Virus record (IMG/VR): IMGVR_UViG_3300042691_025267
Location: 16,387-80,386 of that record
Source: a virus
Length of the DNA stretch: 64,000 bases
Strand: one strand, 5' to 3'
A program made the translations under genes and the position numbers. Under the pieces are notes generated by a model. It made no database searches, was not told the DNA's origin, and worked only from the letters and a program-made list of their open reading frames with translations. Of this stretch, positions 1-16,718 are shown piece after piece. Positions within the stretch are counted from its first letter, which is position 1; every line of letters begins with the position of its first letter.

Positions 1-1938
1 TTGATTGGTTTCCAAATCATACGTCTTGTCCAATGCGTAACGTTTCTTTGCAACCCAGAATCCAGTACTAGCAACCGATTCTCCTTTAATGAACAAACGA
101 TGATCGTTACAATTAAATGCTTTCTTAGCAAATACATTATAAAAGTTATTTAACTTATCTTCCATTTGTCGGGCAAGATCAATCGTAAACTGCTTGGGTA
201 CAACCCCATCAGTCAACAACGGTTTGGCAGATGCGTAGATAGAATCCGTATCAATATACACTACGTAATCTTTCTCGTCTCCCAACAACTTTTCATAATA
301 CTTGTTAACGACCTTTGCCGTAGACTTAATCACATCTTGTCCAGAGATCGTAACTGCGGCAGCATTGTCAACGTCATAGAAACGGAAGACGGGCAGACCC
401 AGCACACCATACAACGAGTTCAAGAAAATCTTCTGAATATGTTGACGACGATCATAATAGTCCGCCAGTTCCTTGTTTCCTTCATTGACATACTTCTTCA
501 TGGTATTCTTGTATTCTACACGAAGATTAAACCACGTATCCAATACCTCTGGAATAATACCCTTCTTATCATTATTATATAATACACCGTTGGAACTAAT
601 AGTCAGATTATTATCCACAAGGAATCCCATGAAGGTATCATAGTCCATTTCCATTGACGTATCTATACCCTTTTCTTCCACCACATATGCAACAATTTCT
701 TTCTTGAAGTGTTGTTCCATATTCCAGTTGCGAACATACCCCACTTTTGTTTCGGGTGAAATGTTCAAGCTCATGATAATGGATGGATACAGCGACTGTA
801 AGTCCAGTGAATAGACCCAATCATACAGACCAGGCGTTGGATCCTTTACGAACGCTCCGATGAATCCTTCTTCCCCATCATCCAGTGCTTCCATCTTTTC
901 CCGTGCATTTTGTGGCTTATCCGTCACAATGATTCCCTTGCGATGCAGATAGGTTACAATCGTACCTTCAAGGAATCGCGATGACATGGGATAATCTTCG
1001 TATGGCACGTGACCGATATGACAGATCCCACGAACCAACTCAATCAACTTGAGTTTCCGATCCATCTCCACAATGATCCGCACGTCCTGTAAGTTATACT
1101 CAATAAACTTATCTAGATCGTCACGGAACAATTGATCCAGTGATCCTTCATATGGAACCTTACCCATGTTCACTTCAATGCGACCAATCGTATCCAACCG
1201 ATAATTGGGTTGCTGCGTATAGGTAAACTTCTTATAGAGATCCAGATAATCTAGACTAGACACACCCGCAATCTTATATCGTTCCAATCGTTCCGAATAC
1301 TTGACCTTACCGATTGGACTGAGTTTATTGGCGATAGACTGACCACATACTTGTCTGATACGATTATACAGATAGGGAACGTCAAATCCATTACTATTCC
1401 ATCCCGTAATAATAGTAGGTTGGATTTGTTCGTAGACAGTAATGAACGCATGTAATAGTTCTACCTCACTGGTACAGAAGATAATATCTGTTTCCTCAGT
1501 AGATTTATTTTCGTACATCGCCGTCTTATCCAACACGAGTACAATATATTTCTTAATCGTAGGATCGTATAAGGCAATAGATGTCACTTCATTATTTGGC
1601 GTATGGATGTCTGGGATTCCATTCGTCATCGACACCTCAATGTCAAAGAACAATACGATATTCCCTTCTGATGGGGAATCTTCGTTTAAATATAAATCAG
1701 TTAATACCCGTGTCTCTTTGGGTAGATCACTTTCAAATATATTGGGATGACCACGGGTAAACCTGCGAGTCTTACTCACACGAACACCCGTCATACTTAG
1801 ATACTTTCCAGACGGATCTTTTACATACGCATAATTAAAATCAGACAACGGCAAAGTTACCAGACCCTTTGCGTCATCCCAAATATAAACTGTTTGTTCA
1901 TCGTCTTGCTGATCAATATAAATATTTTGATACGCCAT
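1..1938 (-). CDS. DNA polymerase family B, C-terminus cut by window edge
   Basis: Replicative DNA polymerase of the family B/T4 gp43 type. The reading frame is open from ATG at 1938 to base 1 (646 codons) with no stop, so the 3' end lies outside the window. Visible exonuclease motifs are Exo I FDIEVS near residue 99, Exo II NSNGFDVPYL near residue 184 and Exo III YNLQDV. Polymerase motifs are motif A DLQSLYPSII, motif B KIFLNSLYG, motif C YIDTDS and the later KKRYAL (KxY). Both proofreading and synthesis sites therefore look intact; only the thumb is missing from view. A GAGG Shine-Dalgarno lies 5 nt before the ATG, and a sigma70-like promoter (1966-1994) sits immediately upstream. It is the last gene of the DNA metabolism module in transcription order here. 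The family assignment is very secure. Confidence 0.97.
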   Translation of the reverse strand, partial: MAYQNIYIDQQDDEQTVYIWDDAKGLVTLPLSDFNYAYVKDPSGKYLSMTGVRVSKTRRFTRGHPNIFESDLPKETRVLTDLYLNEDSPSEGNIVLFFDIEVSMTNGIPDIHTPNNEVTSIALYDPTIKKYIVLVLDKTAMYENKSTEETDIIFCTSEVELLHAFITVYEQIQPTIITGWNSNGFDVPYLYNRIRQVCGQSIANKLSPIGKVKYSERLERYKIAGVSSLDYLDLYKKFTYTQQPNYRLDTIGRIEVNMGKVPYEGSLDQLFRDDLDKFIEYNLQDVRIIVEMDRKLKLIELVRGICHIGHVPYEDYPMSSRFLEGTIVTYLHRKGIIVTDKPQNAREKMEALDDGEEGFIGAFVKDPTPGLYDWVYSLDLQSLYPSIIMSLNISPETKVGYVRNWNMEQHFKKEIVAYVVEEKGIDTSMEMDYDTFMGFLVDNNLTISSNGVLYNNDKKGIIPEVLDTWFNLRVEYKNTMKKYVNEGNKELADYYDRRQHIQKIFLNSLYGVLGLPVFRFYDVDNAAAVTISGQDVIKSTAKVVNKYYEKLLGDEKDYVVYIDTDSIYASAKPLLTDGVVPKQFTIDLARQMEDKLNNFYNVFAKKAFNCNDHRLFIKGESVASTGFWVAKKRYALDKTYDLETNQ

Positions 1939-2793: not shown

Positions 2794-3153
2794 TCACTTA
2801 AGATATCTTTTTAACTTAGATCTTATTTTTTTAACATTATCTCTTATATCACATTCCCACAAATTTATAAACCTATATCCAAGTTCTTCAAATCGTTTCT
2901 TTCTCTCTAAATCACGATTCCAGATTTCTCTTGCAGTTTTTTTCTTACCTTTATTAAAGTAATCCGGTTTATATCTTTGTGGGTTACAGTGCCAGAAATC
3001 ACCATAACACTCTATAATATACTTATCACCGACCAAAAAGTCAACATTATATTTGTCAATTTCTACTTGTACTTTAAACTTGACTTTTAATTTTTTCAGT
3101 ATATCAAAAACTGTTTGTTCAATCTTATTAAGCGATGTATTCTTATCGCTCAT
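2794..3153 (-). CDS. Vsr-like (PD-(D/E)XK) endonuclease
   Basis: Small nuclease of 119 aa related to very-short-patch-repair endonucleases. A core strand pair carries D38 (VDFLV) and E48 (IIECYGDFWH), and the GDFWH segment matches the Vsr GCFWH hallmark. A helix with WNRDLERKKRFEELGYR is followed by LWECDI, again as in Vsr. No linked methylase is present, so mismatch repair of a phage methylation site is unlikely. Stand-alone Vsr-like enzymes in phages can act as homing endonucleases. It is inserted between the two thioredoxin genes, as an invading gene would be. The fold is fairly sure; homing activity is inference. Confidence 0.75.
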   Translation of the reverse strand: MSDKNTSLNKIEQTVFDILKKLKVKFKVQVEIDKYNVDFLVGDKYIIECYGDFWHCNPQRYKPDYFNKGKKKTAREIWNRDLERKKRFEELGYRFINLWECDIRDNVKKIRSKLKRYLK

Positions 3154-5351: not shown

Positions 5352-6737
5352 TCACTCGCCGTCAGAAAAATCGTCGTGTAACTCATTAAATTTCTTTGCT
5401 AGAGTTTTCTTCAACATACTTTCCCCGGCTTGCATTTGCTTCTTCAATAGAATTCCCTTGGAGGAATTTTCATCATAAATTTCAATTTTTCCAATACTCG
5501 TATTCATAAATACTGGGAGCGTAACACCATCAGCACCGAAACGATTTTTCATTACGTGTGCTCTACCTGTATGATTTGCTTTATCTTCCAGTTTACGGGA
5601 AAGTGAAATCACCAAGTCTGCGTTCATAATCTTTTCATACGACGATGCAATCTTATCTGCTTGAATGACTTCATCTTGGATACTAGACCGTTGTGTTTGA
5701 CTCGCAGTCCAGCACGGAAGTCCCATCTCACCAGAGAGTCCGCGAAGTTCCTTGTAGATTTGTCCAAGTTCTTCATGTCGTGCATCAGACCGTTCTGTAG
5801 ACCTCATAAGATCTGCGTAGTCAATCAACATGATATCGGGTTTCATCTTATTCGCAATCAAGTGTTCTAAGTGTGCTTGAATGGTGTGAGTGGTGATGGC
5901 GCTAGGTGGATAGTATTTAATAACAATATCACCCATTACTCCATCAACGACACCACGAACTTGATCTGCATTATTTGGAATATTCCCAGGTTCAATTCCT
6001 GTGAAGATGGTATCAAATCGTAGACCCACATAATTTTCATTTAATTCTAATGTGTAGTACACCACACGTTTTCCTGCACGTGCCGCATTCGCACCAATCG
6101 TGGCAAGTGCCCAACTCTTACCGATACCAGACGGAGCAGCAATAACACCCAATTCGCCAGACGCAAGTCCACCACCAATCAATGTATCAATTGCATCCCA
6201 TCCCGTAGGAATAACATTTCGTGTTTCACCTGCCAACCGCATTTCAATATCTTTCTTCCAATCATGACCAATGTTGCGTGGCTGACCAGACTTCAATGCA
6301 GTATCTACGAGACTCTTAATGTCTCCATATCGTCCAGCTTGAAGAAGATCAACGGACTTAATGATTGCAGACTTCAGTGCTTGATTCTTTGCGAAGTCAA
6401 GAAAACTATCTTTGATATACTGCAAGTCATCATCGTTCTTACGTTGAAACGCCGTACGTAGTTGTTCCTTCACGGCAATCTTCAATACATCATCATTTAC
6501 TCTATCCAATTCAATCTTAAATACTTCAAGAGTAGGAACTGCTTTATATTGTGTGAAATAATCCATCGTCTGTTCAACAATCCATTGACCCGCATCACTT
6601 TCAAAGAATTTTGGATTGAGTACATCCAATGACTGTTGTAAGAAATCAGTTGATGATAACAAGTTAGCCAACACTTTCGCCTGAAAGGTTGGTCCATATT
6701 TTGCCAAATTGTCTACGGTCGTATCAGTTTGTGTCAT
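5352..6737 (-). CDS. Replicative DNA helicase, DnaB/T4 gp41 family
   Basis: Hexameric 5'-3' replicative helicase of superfamily 4 (461 aa). The N-terminal 150 residues are helical, like the DnaB N-domain. The RecA-like core has Walker A APSGIGKS at 201-208, Walker B DIMLIDYADL at 301-310, and a later glutamine segment TASQTQRSS. A basic C-terminal tail (KKTLAKKFNEL) follows. I see no primase domain in it. The start overlaps the FEN nuclease gene by 14 nt. With polymerase B, SSB and RecA it forms a complete T4-style replisome core except for clamp, loader and primase, which are not in this window. Confidence 0.93.
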   Translation of the reverse strand: MTQTDTTVDNLAKYGPTFQAKVLANLLSSTDFLQQSLDVLNPKFFESDAGQWIVEQTMDYFTQYKAVPTLEVFKIELDRVNDDVLKIAVKEQLRTAFQRKNDDDLQYIKDSFLDFAKNQALKSAIIKSVDLLQAGRYGDIKSLVDTALKSGQPRNIGHDWKKDIEMRLAGETRNVIPTGWDAIDTLIGGGLASGELGVIAAPSGIGKSWALATIGANAARAGKRVVYYTLELNENYVGLRFDTIFTGIEPGNIPNNADQVRGVVDGVMGDIVIKYYPPSAITTHTIQAHLEHLIANKMKPDIMLIDYADLMRSTERSDARHEELGQIYKELRGLSGEMGLPCWTASQTQRSSIQDEVIQADKIASSYEKIMNADLVISLSRKLEDKANHTGRAHVMKNRFGADGVTLPVFMNTSIGKIEIYDENSSKGILLKKQMQAGESMLKKTLAKKFNELHDDFSDGE

Positions 6738-7773
6738 GCGTAAATCTATTAAGGGGAATGAACGTCTGTGCTAACCACGAGTCGTAGTTAGGGAACGCAC
6801 CTAGTAATTTAGTTCTCATCATTAACTTTGTCAAGTCATATTTTCTGAATTCAACTGTTGCATTATGAAACATATTCACCACTTTCATACGTGCATCGGT
6901 TGACATCATACCTTCGTGTAGATTCATCAGCTGAATATTTCGTTCCACAATATCACGATTATCAAGGATATTAGAAATAACTTTAGGTATCTTTTTTGTG
7001 TCACCATATTTATCTTCAATAAATTGTAAATTAATATCAATGGATGGATCAACAATTTCTGGAATATATTTCTTTAATGTTGCTTGTCCAACGCCCTTAA
7101 CTCCTTCAATATTGTCGCTGTTATCACCATCAAGTGCTCTATAAAAATAGAAATGCTTCGGATGTATTCCATACTCTTCCAGAACTACATCCACATCAAA
7201 TGTTTTCTTCTTGACGGGATTATACATTTTAACTGAGTCAGACACGAGTTGTAAGAAATCTTTATCAGTGGAATAAATAATACTATGTCCACCTTCCGCT
7301 GTTACTAATTGACTTAGTTGTCCAATTACATCATCTGCTTCAACATTATCTAATGCAAGAATTGTGACGGGTAAACATTCTAACATCTCAATCAGTGATA
7401 CCAATTGAAACTTCATGTTTTCTTTTTCTTGTTCGTCCGTAGTTAAATCATACGCACGATTTAGACGTACTGGTGGCTTTCTATTTGCCTTATACTGTGG
7501 GTAAATCTTTCTCCGTCGTTGACTTCCACCTTTTCCATCAAATACCAACACGACACGAGTCGGCTTGAATGTACGAATCGCAAGACCAATACTTTTGAGA
7601 AATCCAATCATTCCGCCAATATGATGTCCATCTTCATTCATTGACGGAACCACTGTATAAGATCGTAAGAATGTATTAAGTCCATCGACCAACAGGACAC
7701 GAGAATTATATCCCATGCCCTGTTGGTCGTTTTCAAACTTCATGTTGTGGAAAATACTTTGGAGATCAGCCAT
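6724..7773 (-). CDS. 5'-3' exonuclease of the FEN / T4 RNase H family
   Basis: Flap endonuclease/5' exonuclease that would remove RNA primers from Okazaki fragments. The PIN/FEN acidic residues are visible: LLVDGLN at the N-terminus, VLVFDGKGG, the EADDVI helix near residue 144, STDKDF, and DGDNSDNIEG followed by the helix-hairpin-helix VKGVGQATLKKY that grips DNA. The R-rich YPQYKANR segment of the helical arch is also present. At 349 aa it is slightly longer than T4 RNase H. It overlaps its neighbours on both sides, indicating co-translation with helicase. Confidence 0.92.
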   Translation of the reverse strand: MADLQSIFHNMKFENDQQGMGYNSRVLLVDGLNTFLRSYTVVPSMNEDGHHIGGMIGFLKSIGLAIRTFKPTRVVLVFDGKGGSQRRRKIYPQYKANRKPPVRLNRAYDLTTDEQEKENMKFQLVSLIEMLECLPVTILALDNVEADDVIGQLSQLVTAEGGHSIIYSTDKDFLQLVSDSVKMYNPVKKKTFDVDVVLEEYGIHPKHFYFYRALDGDNSDNIEGVKGVGQATLKKYIPEIVDPSIDINLQFIEDKYGDTKKIPKVISNILDNRDIVERNIQLMNLHEGMMSTDARMKVVNMFHNATVEFRKYDLTKLMMRTKLLGAFPNYDSWLAQTFIPLNRFTHDTN

Positions 7774-8008
7774 GTAGTAAAATGTTATGAGAACTGGTTG
7801 CGTTACTAATCGTGTTGGTGTTCCATGTTCCCATCAAATTTCCCCTATTAATTGTATAGGTATGTGATGGTAGATTAGAGCAATACTTTTGCATTAACGC
7901 CGTTCGCACTTCCAACTCAAACATGGGTGTAATATCATATTCATCACCATGTGTATCGGAATATGCACGCATGACTAACTGTACGATGTCTTCTAAATTA
8001 TTCGTCAT
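7766..8008 (-). CDS. Small unknown protein between RecA and FEN
   Basis: About 80 aa, not recognised. The longer frame (from 8044) overlaps recA deeply. The ATG at 8008 gives MTNNLEDIV, is preceded by GGGAG at 6 nt and overlaps the recA stop by 11 nt, so I take it as the start. The first part is helical and acidic (LEDIVQLVMRAYSDTHGDE); the end is Ser/Thr/Asn-rich and ends NILLHG. The tight overlap with both neighbours suggests an accessory replication or recombination factor, but nothing in the sequence proves this. Confidence 0.7.
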   Translation of the reverse strand: MTNNLEDIVQLVMRAYSDTHGDEYDITPMFELEVRTALMQKYCSNLPSHTYTINRGNLMGTWNTNTISNATSSHNILLHG

Positions 8009-9134
8009 CGGAGGCTCCCGTAATACTAATGGCTTCTGGATCAAATTCGGTCTGATACTTCATGATGAGTGAGTCACAGATCGTTTGATAAATGACTTCC
8101 TTTCGTTCCGCATCTGCATCCAAGAACTTACTGAACTCCTTGGATTGGAATTTGGTTTCTTCGCCTGTCGTTGGATCCACATAGGTATACCACGCACCTG
8201 CTTGCTTCACCAACTTGTTTTCCTTCATGACATCCAACCACGATCCCGCATCATCAATTCCACGATTGAAATAAATTTGGAATTCCGCAGTACGATGTGG
8301 TGGACCCAAACGATTCTTGACGATGTTTGCTTTCACCTTCACACCAATCACATCACCGCCAGAATTACTAATCTTACCCATCAGATTCAAACGGAGCCGA
8401 GTAGATGCATGGAATGCAATTGCCTTACCACCCGAAGTCGTCCACGGATCACTAAACGCCATTGCGTTCATCTTCTGACGGAGTTGGTTTGTAAAGACTA
8501 GTGCGATTCGCTCTCGTCCAAGAAGTCCTGTAATCTTACGCATTGCCTTGGAGATAATGATTGCTTTATCTGTAGCATATCCGTCCTTTCCAAAATCGGC
8601 TTCCATTTCTTTCTTCGTGGAGGCAGCAGCAACAGAATCCACGACAATGGTAACCAACTTATCCTTATCTTTCCCAGTCCGTACCTTCTCAATAATTGTG
8701 GTGACAGCATCAAAAATTTCCTCAACAGTCTGTAAATGAACATAGACTAGTTTATTTGTATCAATACCCACCGCCTTAAAGAACTCAGGGTTGACTGCCG
8801 TTTCCGTATCAATGAGTACACCGACACCACCACGCTTCTGTGTGTTAGCGATCAACTGTGCTCCAATCAACGACTTACCAGAACCTTCCAATCCCGTCAA
8901 TTCGGTAATACGACCAACGGCAATACCACCGTGCGGACGATTACTGATAGCAATGTCCAACATGGTATTACCCGTTGAAATGAAATCGGTAAAGTCGGTA
9001 GGTGTTTCTTCACGACCATCAAGGAAGTATGCGATCTGATCGCTATCCTTGTTCATCTTATTGAGTGAGTCTGCAATAAGGGACGCCAGTTCATCACGAT
9101 CTGGTTCTTGAATGACCTTCTTTTCTTTTGCCAT
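7998..9134 (-). CDS. RecA/UvsX-type recombinase
   Basis: ATP-dependent strand-exchange protein for recombination-dependent replication and repair. Features in 378 aa: Walker A GLEGSGKS at 81-88, catalytic glutamate region DTETAVNPEF, Walker B LVTIVVDSVAA at 160-170, the conserved glutamine in FTNQLRQK followed by a DNA-binding loop, and SGGKAIAFHAS. The GGIAVGRITEL lead-in resembles bacterial RecA and T4 UvsX; the acidic C-terminus (GASDDE) is typical of both. It is preceded by its own candidate promoter at 9173-9201 with an overlapping palindrome. Secure call; RecA versus UvsX subfamily is not resolved. Confidence 0.94.
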   Translation of the reverse strand: MAKEKKVIQEPDRDELASLIADSLNKMNKDSDQIAYFLDGREETPTDFTDFISTGNTMLDIAISNRPHGGIAVGRITELTGLEGSGKSLIGAQLIANTQKRGGVGVLIDTETAVNPEFFKAVGIDTNKLVYVHLQTVEEIFDAVTTIIEKVRTGKDKDKLVTIVVDSVAAASTKKEMEADFGKDGYATDKAIIISKAMRKITGLLGRERIALVFTNQLRQKMNAMAFSDPWTTSGGKAIAFHASTRLRLNLMGKISNSGGDVIGVKVKANIVKNRLGPPHRTAEFQIYFNRGIDDAGSWLDVMKENKLVKQAGAWYTYVDPTTGEETKFQSKEFSKFLDADAERKEVIYQTICDSLIMKYQTEFDPEAISITGASDDE

Positions 9135-9207: not shown

Positions 9208-9993
9208 TTAATTAAATACTTCGTCAAACTCATCAATCATATCTTTGACTGATGTTGTCTTCTGGGTAGTTGCAGACTTTGCTGCTGTCGGTGAAGTGAC
9301 GGGAGTATCCTCAACGGTCTTCTGTGTTGGGACCGCTGGACCACTGCTTGGATCAAGATACCGTTCAAGGGTGACCTTCAATTCCTCATACGAGGGTTCC
9401 TTGAAGATGGCACGAATGTCGGGCTGATCAGTGAGGAACTTTTCAATCTGTTCGGCAGTTCCAGCCGGAGTCTGATTTGGCTTTGGACGAACCATCGTCT
9501 TAGCGAAGTTCGTGTCGGACTTTTCCTGTGGGACATACTCAACCACAATGTCACGACCGTTCTTTACATCGGTGATATCGCCGTAATCGGGATCAGAGAT
9601 GATAGAGAGAAGCTCGGTATACACCGTCTTGCCAAACGACATGAAACGAACGCCCTTATCTTCCTCACCACGAACGAGGATTGGAACAAACGTACGGAGC
9701 TTCGGACGGAATACACGAGACTGTGCCCAATCATCCTTAGTACCGCCGGCAGCAAGTGCCTCGGCGAACTCCATGATCGGATCACGGTTACCATAGGATG
9801 TTGGGGAAAGGTGGGTCTTATTACCCAGATAGTGGAAGTACAGTTCAATAAAAGGATTTTCCTTATTTTCCTTCCACGGAACAATACGAATGACGTGCTT
9901 GCCTTCGGTGGGCTTCCAGAGAGCGTCGGTACGATCTCCCTGGCGATTAAACTGATTGAGCTTAGCCTTAAGTGCTGCGATGTTTAGCGACAT
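9208..9993 (-). CDS. gp32-like single-stranded DNA-binding protein
   Basis: SSB of the T4 gp32 organisation, 261 aa. It has a basic N-terminus (LKAKLNQFNRQG) resembling the cooperativity segment, a core with GKHVIRIVPW, PFIELYFHYLGNK and SPTSYG, then a Pro/Thr/Ala-rich linker from about residue 210 and an acidic aromatic tail (DMIDEFDEVF) that in gp32 recruits partner proteins. The entire protein lacks cysteine, so the zinc site of T4 gp32 is absent. Position between the recombinase and the tail/UGDH genes and its own strong-looking promoter (10048-10076) fit a highly expressed SSB. Confidence 0.85.
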   Translation of the reverse strand: MSLNIAALKAKLNQFNRQGDRTDALWKPTEGKHVIRIVPWKENKENPFIELYFHYLGNKTHLSPTSYGNRDPIMEFAEALAAGGTKDDWAQSRVFRPKLRTFVPILVRGEEDKGVRFMSFGKTVYTELLSIISDPDYGDITDVKNGRDIVVEYVPQEKSDTNFAKTMVRPKPNQTPAGTAEQIEKFLTDQPDIRAIFKEPSYEELKVTLERYLDPSSGPAVPTQKTVEDTPVTSPTAAKSATTQKTTSVKDMIDEFDEVFN

Positions 9994-10085: not shown

Positions 10086-10496
10086 TTAGCAATCTATAAT
10101 GTGTAATAATTTAGTGTTTACGATTTTCAGTTTTCCGTAGGCAGTCACTAATACCATATTTTGTAATTCGTTCCAATCAATACGATATGATTTATCCAGC
10201 ACACCACCGTTCTTAGATTCAATCAGTTTATTAATTGCATTAATCGTATAAATGGTATTCGTTTGTTTCTTTCTATGTACTGATATAGTTGAAGCAGGTG
10301 GTGTTAATGACTCGTTTAATTGTTTTGATACGTTATATGTCAACACGAGCTGATTAGCATCTTCGGTATTTTCTAGTACATATATTTTATTAAATACTAA
10401 TTTATATGAACTTTTCACCTTTTCTACAGCAGCATCAAGTTCAGCAACTGTGGTGAACGTACATAATAATTGTGTTTCAGATTCCATATGTAACAT
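10086..10496 (-). CDS. Conserved-looking unknown protein, possible hairpin-controlled start
   Basis: 136 aa, function not recognised. No membrane segment or signal is seen. The N-terminal half alternates short strands and helices (TFTTVAELDAAVEKVKSSYK, IYVLENTEDANQLVLTYN); the middle has RKKQTNTIYTINAINKLI and the end YRIDWNELQNMVLVT. Several in-frame ATGs are clustered at the start (10496, 10487). The AAGAGG ribosome site and the start region are bracketed by an 8-bp hairpin at 10499-10520. It lies between the sugar dehydrogenase and SSB genes. A DNA- or RNA-binding role is only a guess from context. Confidence 0.75.
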   Translation of the reverse strand: MLHMESETQLLCTFTTVAELDAAVEKVKSSYKLVFNKIYVLENTEDANQLVLTYNVSKQLNESLTPPASTISVHRKKQTNTIYTINAINKLIESKNGGVLDKSYRIDWNELQNMVLVTAYGKLKIVNTKLLHIIDC

Positions 10497-10550: not shown

Positions 10551-11411
10551 TTATTCGGAAACTGCTCGTCCTTTCATCTGCTCCCAATCTCTCTCTGGAC
10601 GATCAACGAAAATGTTACGTTTCCAGACTGCCTCTAGCAACGGAGTTCCAACGCCTTTGGAATGTGCATAATGAATAATAGCTGACATATCTTTCGGGAA
10701 ACAGGTACCACCGAATCCATTGCGTCCATCGGGACCAGGTACTTTCCAGTGTCCTGTGCCAAGGCGGGAATCATTGACGATCAACTGACGAAGATCTTCC
10801 CACTCCACACCAGACTCCTTGGCAACCGTCGCCATTTCATTTGCAAACGATACCTTGGTTGCCAAGAATAGGTTTGCGGTATACTTGTATAGTTCGGCGG
10901 TGTTGGACGATACGACCTTACCAAACTTCGGATTAGACATTAAGCTGGTTTGACTGTTCAATGCCCATTCGGCAACCGCATCGGGTGTGGTAGACGACTT
11001 TCCAATCAGTGTGACTTCTTGGTTAATATAGTCGGTTAGATAATTTGCTTCCGTCAAAAACTCTGGACTGAACATGATGATATGTTCGGGATGCTGCTGT
11101 TGTAATCGTTCCGTCGTTCCCGGTGACACAGTGGATTTAATCACGATTACCTTCTTCTCACTGGTCATGCACAGATCATGTACTACCCGCTCTACAATAC
11201 CCGTATCACATGCTCCATTACTCATCATCGGAGTCGGAACCGCAACATAGATAAAGTTTGTACTTTCTAGAAATTCTTCAAATGAAGTGTGCGTGGGATT
11301 TCTTGCAGGATCTATATCAAATGTATGAACCGCATGTCCTTTCAACGTATATGCGTTTAATACTGCACCGCCTACATATCCCAATCCTACAATTCCAATA
11401 TTAAATGTCAT
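10551..11411 (-). CDS. Short UDP-sugar/GDP-mannose 6-dehydrogenase-like protein
   Basis: NAD-dependent nucleotide-sugar dehydrogenase family, 286 aa. It has a Rossmann start GIVGLGYVG (residues 6-14), AVPTPM, the STVSPGTT loop, PEFLTEANY and the catalytic cysteine C237 in GFGGTCFPKD. The usual C-terminal UDP-binding domain (about 120 aa) is absent: the protein ends soon after the central helix. It may work as a compact enzyme or supply only part of the reaction. A full-length relative is encoded at 39277. The 4-nt overlap with the upstream polymerase-like gene shows co-translation. Likely product is a UDP-uronic acid for glycan synthesis. Confidence 0.85.
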   Translation of the reverse strand: MTFNIGIVGLGYVGGAVLNAYTLKGHAVHTFDIDPARNPTHTSFEEFLESTNFIYVAVPTPMMSNGACDTGIVERVVHDLCMTSEKKVIVIKSTVSPGTTERLQQQHPEHIIMFSPEFLTEANYLTDYINQEVTLIGKSSTTPDAVAEWALNSQTSLMSNPKFGKVVSSNTAELYKYTANLFLATKVSFANEMATVAKESGVEWEDLRQLIVNDSRLGTGHWKVPGPDGRNGFGGTCFPKDMSAIIHYAHSKGVGTPLLEAVWKRNIFVDRPERDWEQMKGRAVSE

Positions 11412-12652
11412 AACCGTATCTCCGAAATATTACCATATGTTGTGCCCGTATATAAACGAACGGGGAATTTTTTATCTTCTTCAAGGATGGCAACAATCTG
11501 CATAACCAATTCTGTATCAAATCGTTCCATGTCTAGTAAGATACTATCATAAGTATAAAGTATCAAGTGGTTGCGCGAGGTTTTTAGTAAGTCCAATACT
11601 TGTCGTAATTTAGGTAAAGTTTTTATTACTTCCAATGATTGTACGTAATAATTAAACATTTTACTTGCGTTTGGTTCTGGAAACTCCACCGTTATCCCAT
11701 TGGGTAGTTCCAAGGTTCCCGTTGTTGTTTGAAACAGTTTCCGCAGTTCTACGACTCGTTCAAACAAATGAATACCATAGGTTTCATCCGACATACCATA
11801 GAGAATCTCAAACGTCTTTTGCTTACTCATTGCATACAGTTCATCGGTAATATCATCTGTACCGAAATACTTCTTTGCAAGCTCCATATGAAGTGATCCG
11901 CTCGGTAAAGTAATATCAAACTCATCGGCAATTAGTCGGAGATGATATGCCTCAAAATCCATTTGGACCAGTACTCCATTATCATACCGACTAATAAACG
12001 CATCACGAGTACCATCCGATTTATTCAATGCGGAAAAATTAATACCACCAAATCTATTACTGGGTCTTCCGGTAATCGTATAGGGATTATATTCTGAATA
12101 CACCAGATTATCTTTGAACGTTCGCAGTGTCCTTGGTTCAAAATGTTGTTGTAATACCTCCCGATCCACACAGATCCCCGCATCTTCTATTTCACGCAAC
12201 GTATGAATCATAGTTCGGACGGATTCACAGGTGTCTGTTATTGTAGTATTATTAATAATGTCCCATTGCTTCTTTGCATACTTCTTAATAATTGATCCCC
12301 ATGTTGACAGCGGAATCAATCGGTTGACATCATTTATACTATAAAAATGGTTATGCGTGTCGTTAATGTACGGCGTATACTCCCATTCAATCAATGGAAG
12401 GTTGTGGACGTAGGCACGTATGTGAACGTCCTCTGTGGTCAAATACGGACCCAGCGGTACCGTAAAAGGTTGAGCATCTTCATGAGACACTGAAATAATA
12501 TACGTTTCATCGGAAAAACTTACCCCCACACATAATATGTTATTTTCCTTTCTGTGGTAATGGATATCACGAAAAATCGGGGTCAATATACATTGCTCCC
12601 GATTCATTCGTTGGATTAGGTTTTCGTATTCAATAACCGTTGTAATAACCAT
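11408..12652 (-). CDS. Compact family A DNA polymerase-like protein
   Basis: 414 aa with a recognisable DNA polymerase I palm/fingers. TGRPSNRFGGINFSAL (near 195) parallels the family TGR...N.Q motif. Motif A is VQMDFEAYHLRL with D232. Motif B is KQKTFEILYGMS, aligning K277, F281, Y285 and G286. Motif C is TYDSILLD with D369, but the usual HDE is YDS, so the second acidic residue is Ser370. The N-terminal ~150 residues show no clear exonuclease motif. Both metal-binding aspartates survive, so activity is plausible but altered. The phage also has an intact family B polymerase (1-1938), making this a second, possibly specialised enzyme. It overlaps its neighbours by 1-4 nt. Confidence 0.8.
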   Translation of the reverse strand: MVITTVIEYENLIQRMNREQCILTPIFRDIHYHRKENNILCVGVSFSDETYIISVSHEDAQPFTVPLGPYLTTEDVHIRAYVHNLPLIEWEYTPYINDTHNHFYSINDVNRLIPLSTWGSIIKKYAKKQWDIINNTTITDTCESVRTMIHTLREIEDAGICVDREVLQQHFEPRTLRTFKDNLVYSEYNPYTITGRPSNRFGGINFSALNKSDGTRDAFISRYDNGVLVQMDFEAYHLRLIADEFDITLPSGSLHMELAKKYFGTDDITDELYAMSKQKTFEILYGMSDETYGIHLFERVVELRKLFQTTTGTLELPNGITVEFPEPNASKMFNYYVQSLEVIKTLPKLRQVLDLLKTSRNHLILYTYDSILLDMERFDTELVMQIVAILEEDKKFPVRLYTGTTYGNISEIRL

Positions 12653-13056
12653 TAAGTCTCCGATACCCAGTACTCCAGATAACTTGAAATATATCTACGT
12701 AACCCCCCAAAAGTCAAGTCCGCATCTGCAACGGTTATTCTATTTTGATCTTCTACACCATATAAGTTGGCACCACTACTGTGTTTTATAGTTTCTTTTT
12801 TACCTACTATTTTCCATTTAATGGTGGTTGTAATAAACCGAGGATTTTCTTTTAAATCTTCATATTGTGTCTTATCTATTTCCGTTACATACATTTGGTC
12901 ATTAACCTGTCTAACAAAATATCTGACAATAAACTTCTTCGACGCATCCTCTTGGGTAACTACGGGAAGTGCGGGTGTTGGTAATTTATCTATTGTGTCT
13001 CGTAACTCCTCTTCTGAGTCTTTATATAATTTTTTAAGAAGTTCTTCGTCTATCAT
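12652..13056 (-). CDS. Unknown protein at the end of the tail module
   Basis: 134 aa, function not recognised. An acidic helical N-terminus (EELLKKLYKDSEEELRD) is followed by a mixed region FIVRYFVRQVNDQMYVTEIDK and an aromatic C-terminus with TFGGLRRYISSYLEYW. No signal peptide or membrane segment. It lies directly after the hub/lysin gene (11-nt gap) and overlaps the polymerase-like gene by 1 nt, so it could be a minor virion or tail-assembly protein. That is context only. Confidence 0.7.
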   Translation of the reverse strand: MIDEELLKKLYKDSEEELRDTIDKLPTPALPVVTQEDASKKFIVRYFVRQVNDQMYVTEIDKTQYEDLKENPRFITTTIKWKIVGKKETIKHSSGANLYGVEDQNRITVADADLTFGGLRRYISSYLEYWVSET

Positions 13057-13067
13057 GTACGTTTTAG

Positions 13068-16000
13068 TTAGGGATTGCGAGGTTTATTTACTCTTCCGGC
13101 AACTCTTTTAGCAGCACTGAGTCCGCCCAATAGGTTCTTTTGTAGCGCACCTCTGGCAGCTTCTTCAAATGTCTTTACTTTAATATCGCTTGGTATTTTT
13201 ACTGATGGACTACTTGATTTATTTTCCGTAGAAGGGGTTGGTGCGGTTAGTATACCAAACATTTTTCGTTTCCATTCTTCGCCAAGATAGTTAAACACCG
13301 CATGTATTTTGGTTTTCCATCCAGAATTGTCGATGACATCTTCTATCGTTAATGTTTGAAATGCACCAAATGCTTTATAAAATGCGGGGATCCGGTCAAT
13401 CCAGAACAATTCACCAAGTCTAAATCCATTAATTCCAGGCATAGTGATGTCTGCTTTTATTGCTAATGCGCCAGGTGCAGCACCAAAAGAATTGGAGCGA
13501 ATTCCGTTTGCATTACCGGCAATTTGAGCAACCATGTGTTCGGGATATATTTCCGAGTATCTGAACAGGGTTTGTAATTTATGTAGTTCACGTATTTCTG
13601 CCTGTTTTTCTTCGGCAGCTTCTGTGCCGCTATCCAATATTTGTACTTGTCTGACAATTTCTTGTTGCCGTGCACATTCTTGGCAAAGACTTTTCCCTGC
13701 ATCAGCATTACCGTCGCCTGCGTTTTTATATACATCTTCCGTACATTGATCACTAGGAGATACCGTTGTTGGACTAGTTGTTGATGGAATCAATGGCAGA
13801 CCGACTCCGCCATAATATTCATTCAATTTAGCAAATGCTGCTGGGTTATTTTCTACCCAACCATTTGTAGTCCACAGGTCAAGTTCTGCTTTAGCAGTAC
13901 TGACAATTGTCGAAACTGCTTCAGCAGGTGGTCTAAGGATGACATATACGTTTTTATCCGTGACAAGTCCATTGCTCAAACCATATGATGCATAGGAAAC
14001 TTTATCAGAAACATTGCCTCCTATGGCAGATGCTTTATTAGATATATTTACAACAATATCTCCGTGCCCGGCTTTACCAGACCAATCGGATGTTGTATAT
14101 GTATTATCACTAACTTTACCTGAATCAGGATTTACTCTATTACCAACAATGATGTCACCCAGTTGTACCTTTGTACTTGCTGGACTTAGTGCTAACCAGC
14201 CAGGTGCTTTATTATTTTTTATACTTTGTGCGTAGTTTGAATGTTTTCCATTTCCAGGAAAGTTTGTTTTGCTCTGTTTCATGACGTAACTTATGAATGC
14301 ACCACTCCAATGATGTTCTTCAATCCATTTTGTTAAGTCGTCTGGTGCAGTCTGTGTCGGTAAACATGGTTTACATTTTTTACATTGGGGTCCATTAACT
14401 AATTTTTGTGCCTCTGACTGTAATACTTTTCGTTCTTCAACAGTTTTATTAGACACATCAACTGGACTAATCACTATTGGTGCCGAACGATTCCCTACAC
14501 CAGAGGTTTGTGCAGTGGTTTGAGTATTTTGTTTTTTACATCTACCATATGCTTCCACCAATTTTTTACGTTCTGTTCTAGGTAATATGGTTAAGTCTGG
14601 TCCTTGCTCAGTATCACCACCTGGATATATGGAGAGTACCGCAAACATTCTTCGCAGTACATCATTTGGATCAGATAATGAAGGATCGCGTGGAATGTCT
14701 CCATCAGATATATCCGTTCCTGTGGATTGCGCAGGTTGTTGTCCAGGCGGGGGAGCGTTGATGGCATCCATATCACTTTGTTGCACCAATCCGGTGGCAA
14801 CAATTTGAGTAAACAATCGTTTTGGTAACGATAAATCTACAGAACAATCTATTAACTCAGATCCTATTAATTCACCCGACTCGGTATCCGTGCGAATATA
14901 CTTGTTGAATAAATGTACTTTATCCATGAACCTAGACACCACATCATTTCCATTTTCACGCCAATTTGCGTCAACTACCATCCGATTATGTACTGGATTA
15001 ATTTCTGCATTAGCCGTTGGTTCTAGATCATCCAGCACCAAATTCCAATAGTTTCTAGTAGCAGCACTCATTCGTTGAAGTAATAGTGATATACCCCGAA
15101 GGAGTGTATCGCCTTGAATCATGCACTCAATAACTGCTTTATGGTTAATCCACACACCAGTACTTAGAAATGCCTTGTCTGGATTATTTGGATCCGTTAC
15201 GGTTGCCGAGTTTTCAAACAAACCCACCTTACTAAAATCTTCGGTGTCTTTTGTTTTTTTCATGGATGTCTGTTGAGAACCCTGTGTTTTATATTCAGGA
15301 TCTTTTTCTGCAAGTGTTGCTGCGAGTTCATTAACGATAACCAACGTGGTAAGATCGGTGGAACGCAAGTGTTTATTAATTCCAACATACGATTCCGCCG
15401 GATCCGTTAAAATAAGTGGACCGGGAGATGATGATGCAGTCTTTAAATCCCCTGTCGTGTTATAGGGCTTGAGTACTGCAATCTTAGCCAGTTCAACGGG
15501 AGTAAGTGCTGCACCTTTGAATATGGATTTTACGCCAACGTCTTCGTCATTCAAGACCACGTTAACAAAAAACCTCCAAGTCATAAAATAGGCGTCTTCT
15601 GCGTCACCGAAGGATATAGAATTTGTGTTTACGTTTTTATCGTTTGGTTTTGGTTCACCGCGTTTACTGTTACTTTGTTTAAATATTTTTACATGGTCTT
15701 TCCACGGACTATTCTTATTCGGATCCACCGTGTTATCTAACAACGTTTTTAAATTTTTTCCAGCCGAAGTATTTGTAAAATATCCGTAAATACTATTTGA
15801 ATTATCTGCACAAATTGGCGTTCCTCGTGCTCTTGCAGGAGTTACTGTATTTTTTGTGGAGTATGCCCATGAATCTTCGGAAGTACCAACGATTTTCACT
15901 GTACATTCAGCCGATCCATCTGAATTAGACTTTACATTAAAGTTTGCCACTCGACCAAACAACCACATGTATTGTCCGTTTGTCTTATATGCGTAGTCTT

Positions 16001-16718
16001 CTAAAATTTCTTCCGTACCAACTTCGTTTCTCCCAAGTCTCTGTAACATTTCTTTTAATTTTATGCGATCATGCCACGGAAACATGTGATCTCCAATCTT
16101 TGGCATTTCATCAGCGGACTTTGTTAGATTGGACAGTAAAGAAAATTCCTGACCCCACTCCAGTATCATACCAATACCAGGAACTAGGAATGTCCGATGT
16201 AAACTTTCTAATTGAATTAATGATGGAATTGAAATTTGTAAATCAGCACTTGCCAACATTCCGTTCTTTCCACGATTTATTGTAACTCTGGTTATTCCAG
16301 GCGGTGGTATACGAACATAGTTACCCGTATTGGTTGATAACGTTGCTCGTTTATCAAAGATTTGACCAATTGTAATAGCAAGTTCTGCGTCAGGGTCTTT
16401 TGCATAGACTCGTTTGGTTTCACCATTCGGTCCATAGGTGTATCCTATCAGTGGAGTATTATCACCTGCCTCAGCGTACATGTCTTCATACGCTACATCT
16501 TCTGCTATTCCGTGCAACCCCAACGAGAATCCAATATATCCTTCGCTTAAATCAGCACTCGCTTCGCCACCCAACATTTTATGACGTAACGTTGTTGTTG
16601 CTTTTACAAAGGGCATAGCCATTTGTATTGTATTATTTAGACGCGATCTATTATCCAATACGTCTGCAATTTTTCTGTTTATTACTTTGTAGTCAAAAGA
16701 ACTTTTATCGTGCGCCAT
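13068..16718 (-). CDS. Large baseplate hub/tail protein with DUF2272-type lysin domain
   Basis: 1216-aa tail protein at the baseplate end of the module. Residues 1-300 are beta-rich and hub-like (GITRVTINRG, PGIGMILEWGQE). A CxxC-containing linker (CKKCKPC near 781) precedes a domain at about 795-925 with WSGAFISYVM, LGDIIV, GHGDIVV and IGGNVS. That order is typical of DUF2272, an NlpC/P60-like peptidoglycan hydrolase family. A second CxxC (CQEC) follows, then a C-terminal domain with GFRLGELFWIDRIPAFYKAFGAFQ. I infer a tail-associated enzyme that opens the cell wall during injection, analogous in role to T4 gp5. Structural placement is by gene order; the lysin family is my recognition without a search. 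Confidence 0.75.
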   Translation of the reverse strand: MAHDKSSFDYKVINRKIADVLDNRSRLNNTIQMAMPFVKATTTLRHKMLGGEASADLSEGYIGFSLGLHGIAEDVAYEDMYAEAGDNTPLIGYTYGPNGETKRVYAKDPDAELAITIGQIFDKRATLSTNTGNYVRIPPPGITRVTINRGKNGMLASADLQISIPSLIQLESLHRTFLVPGIGMILEWGQEFSLLSNLTKSADEMPKIGDHMFPWHDRIKLKEMLQRLGRNEVGTEEILEDYAYKTNGQYMWLFGRVANFNVKSNSDGSAECTVKIVGTSEDSWAYSTKNTVTPARARGTPICADNSNSIYGYFTNTSAGKNLKTLLDNTVDPNKNSPWKDHVKIFKQSNSKRGEPKPNDKNVNTNSISFGDAEDAYFMTWRFFVNVVLNDEDVGVKSIFKGAALTPVELAKIAVLKPYNTTGDLKTASSSPGPLILTDPAESYVGINKHLRSTDLTTLVIVNELAATLAEKDPEYKTQGSQQTSMKKTKDTEDFSKVGLFENSATVTDPNNPDKAFLSTGVWINHKAVIECMIQGDTLLRGISLLLQRMSAATRNYWNLVLDDLEPTANAEINPVHNRMVVDANWRENGNDVVSRFMDKVHLFNKYIRTDTESGELIGSELIDCSVDLSLPKRLFTQIVATGLVQQSDMDAINAPPPGQQPAQSTGTDISDGDIPRDPSLSDPNDVLRRMFAVLSIYPGGDTEQGPDLTILPRTERKKLVEAYGRCKKQNTQTTAQTSGVGNRSAPIVISPVDVSNKTVEERKVLQSEAQKLVNGPQCKKCKPCLPTQTAPDDLTKWIEEHHWSGAFISYVMKQSKTNFPGNGKHSNYAQSIKNNKAPGWLALSPASTKVQLGDIIVGNRVNPDSGKVSDNTYTTSDWSGKAGHGDIVVNISNKASAIGGNVSDKVSYASYGLSNGLVTDKNVYVILRPPAEAVSTIVSTAKAELDLWTTNGWVENNPAAFAKLNEYYGGVGLPLIPSTTSPTTVSPSDQCTEDVYKNAGDGNADAGKSLCQECARQQEIVRQVQILDSGTEAAEEKQAEIRELHKLQTLFRYSEIYPEHMVAQIAGNANGIRSNSFGAAPGALAIKADITMPGINGFRLGELFWIDRIPAFYKAFGAFQTLTIEDVIDNSGWKTKIHAVFNYLGEEWKRKMFGILTAPTPSTENKSSSPSVKIPSDIKVKTFEEAARGALQKNLLGGLSAAKRVAGRVNKPRNP

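Follow-up and report, generated by a model that had tools for sequence, protein, structure and literature searches.

Two active-site residues of E. coli DNA polymerase I (Pol I), R754 and H881, contact the nucleotide, R754 at its triphosphate. A further residue, E710, has been described as the block to ribonucleotides, and in the family A polymerase (PolA) of phage Tt72, which is active with a motif C that reads HDS, mutants retain 76% (S616A), 35% (E389A, the E710 position), and 4% (two Asp mutants) of activity (PMC9324360). Crass-like phages switch between PolA and family B polymerase (PolB) among relatives and reportedly never carry two polymerases (PMC7886860). In the open-access literature we found no described two-polymerase phage of the kind considered here. 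Many aquatic phages carry a small polymerase beside their main polymerase.

The window, by which we mean the whole 64,000-nucleotide stretch of IMG/VR virus record IMGVR_UViG_3300042691_025267 that was analysed, contains one such gene, whose features and surroundings are collected in the table. In the ORF listing, an open reading frame of 414 aa runs from 12652 to 11408 on the minus strand and fills that interval exactly; GGAG precedes its start codon, which shares one base with the stop codon of the upstream gene F3. PHROGs assigns the product as a DNA polymerase, residues 182-290 score against Pfam DNA_pol_A at E=6e-5, short of the curated cut-off, and the profile of the protein's family aligns with the Klenow fragment at E=1.2e-9. 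The frame is real and encodes a family A polymerase homologue. An earlier sequence-only reading, which named no strand, had proposed a second, compact family A polymerase-like enzyme here, and this is borne out by a confidently predicted Klenow-like palm, by invariant catalytic aspartates, and by a full-size replicase that is always alongside.

The palm that this reading had anticipated is present in the AlphaFold2 model built on a 50-row alignment (pLDDT 94.2, pTM 0.90), which Foldseek matches to Klenow, the apicoplast polymerase, and Pol theta/nu in the PDB at E of about 1e-13 to 1e-15, with TMq up to 0.75 (1kfs). In E. coli, 126 residues separate the IE helix from the TGR motif; here there are only 22-40, which means that the thumb has been lost, and the fingers segment measures 46-57 residues in the small polymerases versus 77 in E. 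coli. The claim that there is no visible exonuclease stands for the DxE residues, which are not kept (P25/F27 at Klenow D355/E357, in a weak alignment), and falls for the domain itself, of which about 135 residues remain at the N-terminus. This domain appears to superpose on the Klenow proofreading domain, because the Foldseek match covers full-length Klenow and a TMq of 0.75 exceeds what residues 140-414 (66% of the chain) could supply; the hhalign alignment to the proofreading domain is weak (E=0.006, probability 6%). Going by the model, the N-terminus is probably an inactive remnant of a DnaQ-type proofreading domain. Since the canonical features of Pol I (E710/R754/H881, the thumb, and the 3'-5' exonuclease residues) are missing, we place the protein outside the Pol I-type enzymes, on a divergent branch of the family A fold that has no thumb.

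Residues were mapped to Klenow by family-profile and profile-profile alignments, which agree, and conservation was scored in 52 representative relatives (80% identity clusters). These alignments confirm the motifs first read from the letters, namely motif A with D232, motif B with K277...YG (in full, K277...F281...Y285-G286), and motif C with D369, and the check on homologues that the sequence-only reading had itself proposed finds D232 and D369 in 52/52. Equally without variation in the 52 are H237, Y273, K277, F281, Y285, G286, Q338, Y368, and D374, while N334 is kept in 51. Retained from Klenow are D705 (D232), R668 (R196), K758 (K277), F762 (F281), Y766 (Y285), N845 (N334), Q849 (Q338), and D882 (D369), and replaced are E710 (H237), R754 (Y273), and H881 (Y368). 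The three replaced residues are canonical in all nine PolAs of our reference set (E. coli, T7, and seven other phages), and none of them is found in the 52 representatives. Among 170 near-full-length members, a pattern check reads His at one of the two positions checked in 169 and Tyr at the other in all 170, and motif C reads YD[SA] in all 162 near-full-length members that its pattern matched. Motif C had been singled out as rewritten, with TYDS in place of HDE, and most of that claim dissolves: five of the nine reference PolAs have HDS, with Ser at the E883 position, HDS is common in phage PolAs, and the HDS enzyme of Tt72 is active, so that the Ser can be ruled out as the key oddity and only the change from His to Tyr is unusual. 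The real rewriting lies instead in the nucleotide-contacting residues H237, Y273, and Y368, which, like the missing thumb, the earlier reading had not noted. Given E710H, R754Y, and H881Y, nucleotide selection probably differs from that of Pol I, and relaxed exclusion of ribonucleotides is possible. E710 and R754 are important for nucleotide binding by Pol I, and therefore losing both could leave very weak dNTP activity.

The family is large. Scanning IMG/VR with the protein found 22 loci, and with a 12-member alignment at least 569 confirmed stretches; complete members have about 393-455 aa. Near-full-length relatives occur in six of 50,697 phage records (four of Flavobacterium phage immuto, Microcystis phage Mel-JY01, and one 484-kb uncultured phage), and searching with the 484-kb phage's own peptides confirmed no relatives of its copy. 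The PolB of this last phage is matched in two frames of 1022 and 625 aa (LR756508.1, about 260623-266900), which suggests a split or interrupted gene. A bacterial origin was considered and rejected, as the seven matches in a scan of genome contigs all lie in metagenome-assembled genomes and are probably phage contigs. The gene is under purifying selection, with dN/dS of about 0.06-0.13 in five pairs at high dS (0.7-3.0), and these ratios together with the invariant catalytic residues rule out a pseudogene. In a phylogeny with the reference PolAs, of the sort that had been suggested, the small polymerases form one group (support 100/100, stem of 1.71 changes per column), and their position among PolAs is uncertain because of long branches.

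Table. Features of the small polymerase locus in window coordinates.
Feature	Position	Strand	Evidence
Replicative family B polymerase, 841-aa frame continuing past window	1..1938	-	open frame without stops, running on into adjoining sequence
DnaB/gp41-type replicative helicase	5352..6737	-	Pfam DnaB_C E=2e-18
Separate 5'-3' exonuclease (Pol I N-terminal type)	6724..7773	-	Pfam 5_3_exonuc_N E=6e-35
UvsX/RecA recombinase	7998..9134	-	Pfam RecA E=9e-53
gp32-like ssDNA-binding protein	9208..9993	-	Pfam gp32 E=2e-15
F4, 136 aa, steady companion of small polymerase	10086..10496	-	40-locus gene order, phage record matches, model
Small family A polymerase gene, 414 aa	11408..12652	-	ORF, Pfam, Klenow alignment, AlphaFold, Foldseek
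Palm and shortened fingers, thumb absent (residues 140-414)	11411..12235	-	Klenow alignments, AlphaFold, segment lengths
Motif C Y368-D369 (Klenow H881-D882)	11546..11551	-	52/52 invariant; His in 9/9 references
Y273 at Klenow R754 (triphosphate contact)	11834..11836	-	52/52 invariant; Arg in 9/9 references
H237 at steric-gate position (Klenow E710)	11942..11944	-	52/52 invariant; Glu in 9/9 reference PolAs
Motif A catalytic D232 (Klenow D705)	11957..11959	-	52/52 invariant; Klenow alignment
N-terminal domain (residues 1-135), probable inactive DnaQ-type proofreading remnant	12248..12652	-	Foldseek, weak hhalign
F3, 134 aa, immediately upstream	12652..13056	-	its stop overlaps polymerase start

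We examined 13 genomes, the window's own included, for replication genes. Each has one copy of the small polymerase and, beside it, a full-size replicase, which is PolB in eight (the window's own among them) and a PolA of about 780 aa in the other five. The intact PolB reported for this phage is indeed there, open without stops from the window's left edge onward. Across 40 loci, gene order is nearly always F1-F5-F2-F3 (the tail side), the polymerase, F4, gp32, UvsX/RecA, the 5'-3' exonuclease, and DnaB, and optional insertions fall between the polymerase and F4. Co-translation with a tail-module gene, also proposed earlier, agrees with the overlap of stop and start in this phage and its close kin, to which such tight coupling with F3 is mainly confined, but most of the distant relatives show intervals of about 12-77 nt. 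What stays constant is the connection with the replication genes (F4-gp32-UvsX-exonuclease-DnaB).

Several other genes at these loci deserve mention. A UDP-glucose/GDP-mannose dehydrogenase gene (10551-11411, minus strand), which shares 4 bases with the stop end of the polymerase gene, separates the latter from F4 and is found in several close relatives only. The window also encodes a 1216-aa protein of the tail module (13068-16718, minus strand), which contains a DUF2272 domain (E=1e-10). F3, which has about 120-260 aa elsewhere, reaches 927 and 644 aa in loci L043 and L044, and in locus L067 a GroEL-like chaperonin gene (12835-14451) stands between UvsX and the 5'-3' exonuclease. In locus L001 (15232-18261) the DnaB helicase gene is in two parts that have intein-like ends and are separated by a free-standing ORF (340 aa) for a VSR-like endonuclease; the arrangement resembles that of a fractured gene carrying a split intein, which we take to be akin to the gp41-1 type. 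The UvsX/RecA gene of locus L089 (7758-11337) is split likewise, and related endonuclease ORFs lie within the gene and directly after it. Resembling the endonucleases of these two split genes is a 119-aa ORF of the window (2794-3153, minus strand) that carries the VSR-like motif YGDFWHCNP and is free-standing between thioredoxin-like genes.

F4 (about 130 aa) is the most constant companion. It occurs in six phage records, those that also carry the small polymerase, while the neighbouring gp32 matches 189. Of the F4 loci, 40 have 3 kb or more upstream, and 37 of these contain the small polymerase. F4 has an invariant motif, HR..(N/T)NT.YT.N..N, and a confident structure model (pLDDT 90). No convincing match to F4 turned up in Pfam, in PHROG, or among PDB folds. 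As a lead, F4 may be a partner of the small polymerase; shared ancestry could give the same pattern.

Our best reading, about an even bet (probability roughly 0.5), is that the protein is a catalytically active accessory polymerase with the family A fold, distinct from the replicase, that selects nucleotides differently from Pol I and serves gaps or intermediates of recombination. A specialised role of this sort, suggested earlier, is supported by the invariant aspartates, the low dN/dS, and the separate full-size replicative polymerase in every genome. Catalysis would use the two-metal palm mechanism through D232 and D369; the O-helix Lys, Phe, and Tyr are retained, as are the minor-groove contacts. 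In view of the absent thumb, short fingers, and dead proofreading domain, the enzyme would add short patches in a distributive, error-tolerant manner, and genome copying would be left to PolB or the full PolA. It is the gene neighbourhood that suggests the gap and recombination role: F4, gp32, UvsX/RecA, and the separate 5'-3' exonuclease probably act with the small polymerase on such structures, an arrangement somewhat like a Pol I divided into two genes. A bolder idea, which we hold only tentatively and think unlikely, is that the family is a widespread class of phage enzymes in which the thumbless polymerase, with its His steric gate and rewired triphosphate site, works with F4 as its dedicated partner to use ribonucleotides or unusual substrates in repriming or patching recombination intermediates.

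An unlikely alternative to the accessory polymerase is a ribonucleotide-tolerant priming or repriming enzyme that, where forks stall or at recombination intermediates, makes short primers or extends them. The thumbless build suits short, distributive synthesis, and an invariant His occupies the position of E710, the residue described as blocking rNTPs (PMC9324360). However, the bulk of His may still keep ribose out, and the small polymerase has no zinc-binding or primase-specific domain. The lost steric gate had prompted the hypothesis that this is the phage's missing primase, and as sole primase it is ruled out by DnaG-type primases in 11 of the 13 genomes, one of them weakly matched; none turned up in the 80-kb record itself or in a linear record of 164 kb. 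Less likely is Okazaki-fragment maturation, in which the small polymerase would replace RNA primers together with the separate 5'-3' exonuclease, as bacterial Pol I does. That exonuclease is of Pol I type, is present in 13/13 genomes, and lies a few genes downstream, but T4-type phages manage Okazaki maturation without such a polymerase, and the altered nucleotide site would be left unexplained. We think it improbable that the protein is an inactive scaffold, as also proposed earlier, or a replisome regulator: the losses of three nucleotide-contacting residues and of the thumb would fit, but D232, D369, K277, F281, Y285, N334 (51/52), and Q338 are kept across very diverged members. A relative of T7 RNA polymerase acting in transcription, which would share a non-Glu steric gate and a Ser after the motif C Asp, is very improbable for a protein of only 414 aa with a TGR-type motif of the DNA-polymerase form and with DNA polymerases as the best 50 PDB fold matches listed.

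This large family retains a catalytic core without the thumb or the three substrate-contacting residues of the nine reference PolAs; it tests the minimum of Pol I needed for polymerisation and could be the source of an enzyme that selects nucleotides in an unusual way. With E. coli Klenow the small polymerase shares the fold (TMq up to 0.75), the motif A and C aspartates, and the equivalents of K758, F762, Y766, R668, N845, and Q849, and it differs in having no thumb, short fingers, lost proofreading residues, and the E710H, R754Y, and H881Y substitutions. The HDS phage PolAs (Herelleviridae, Tt72) have the same D-S of motif C and an Asp five residues on, but they are full-size, keep E710/R754/H881, and are, as far as known, the only polymerase of their phage. 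Gene 1 of Flavobacterium phage immuto ('DNA polymerase family A') belongs to the same family, in the same gene order and with a cultured host, and in that phage a full-size PolA, its second, takes the place of PolB as replicase. As in crAss-like phages, the replicase alternates between PolA and PolB; in contrast to them, a second, small polymerase persists in many aquatic phages whichever replicase serves.
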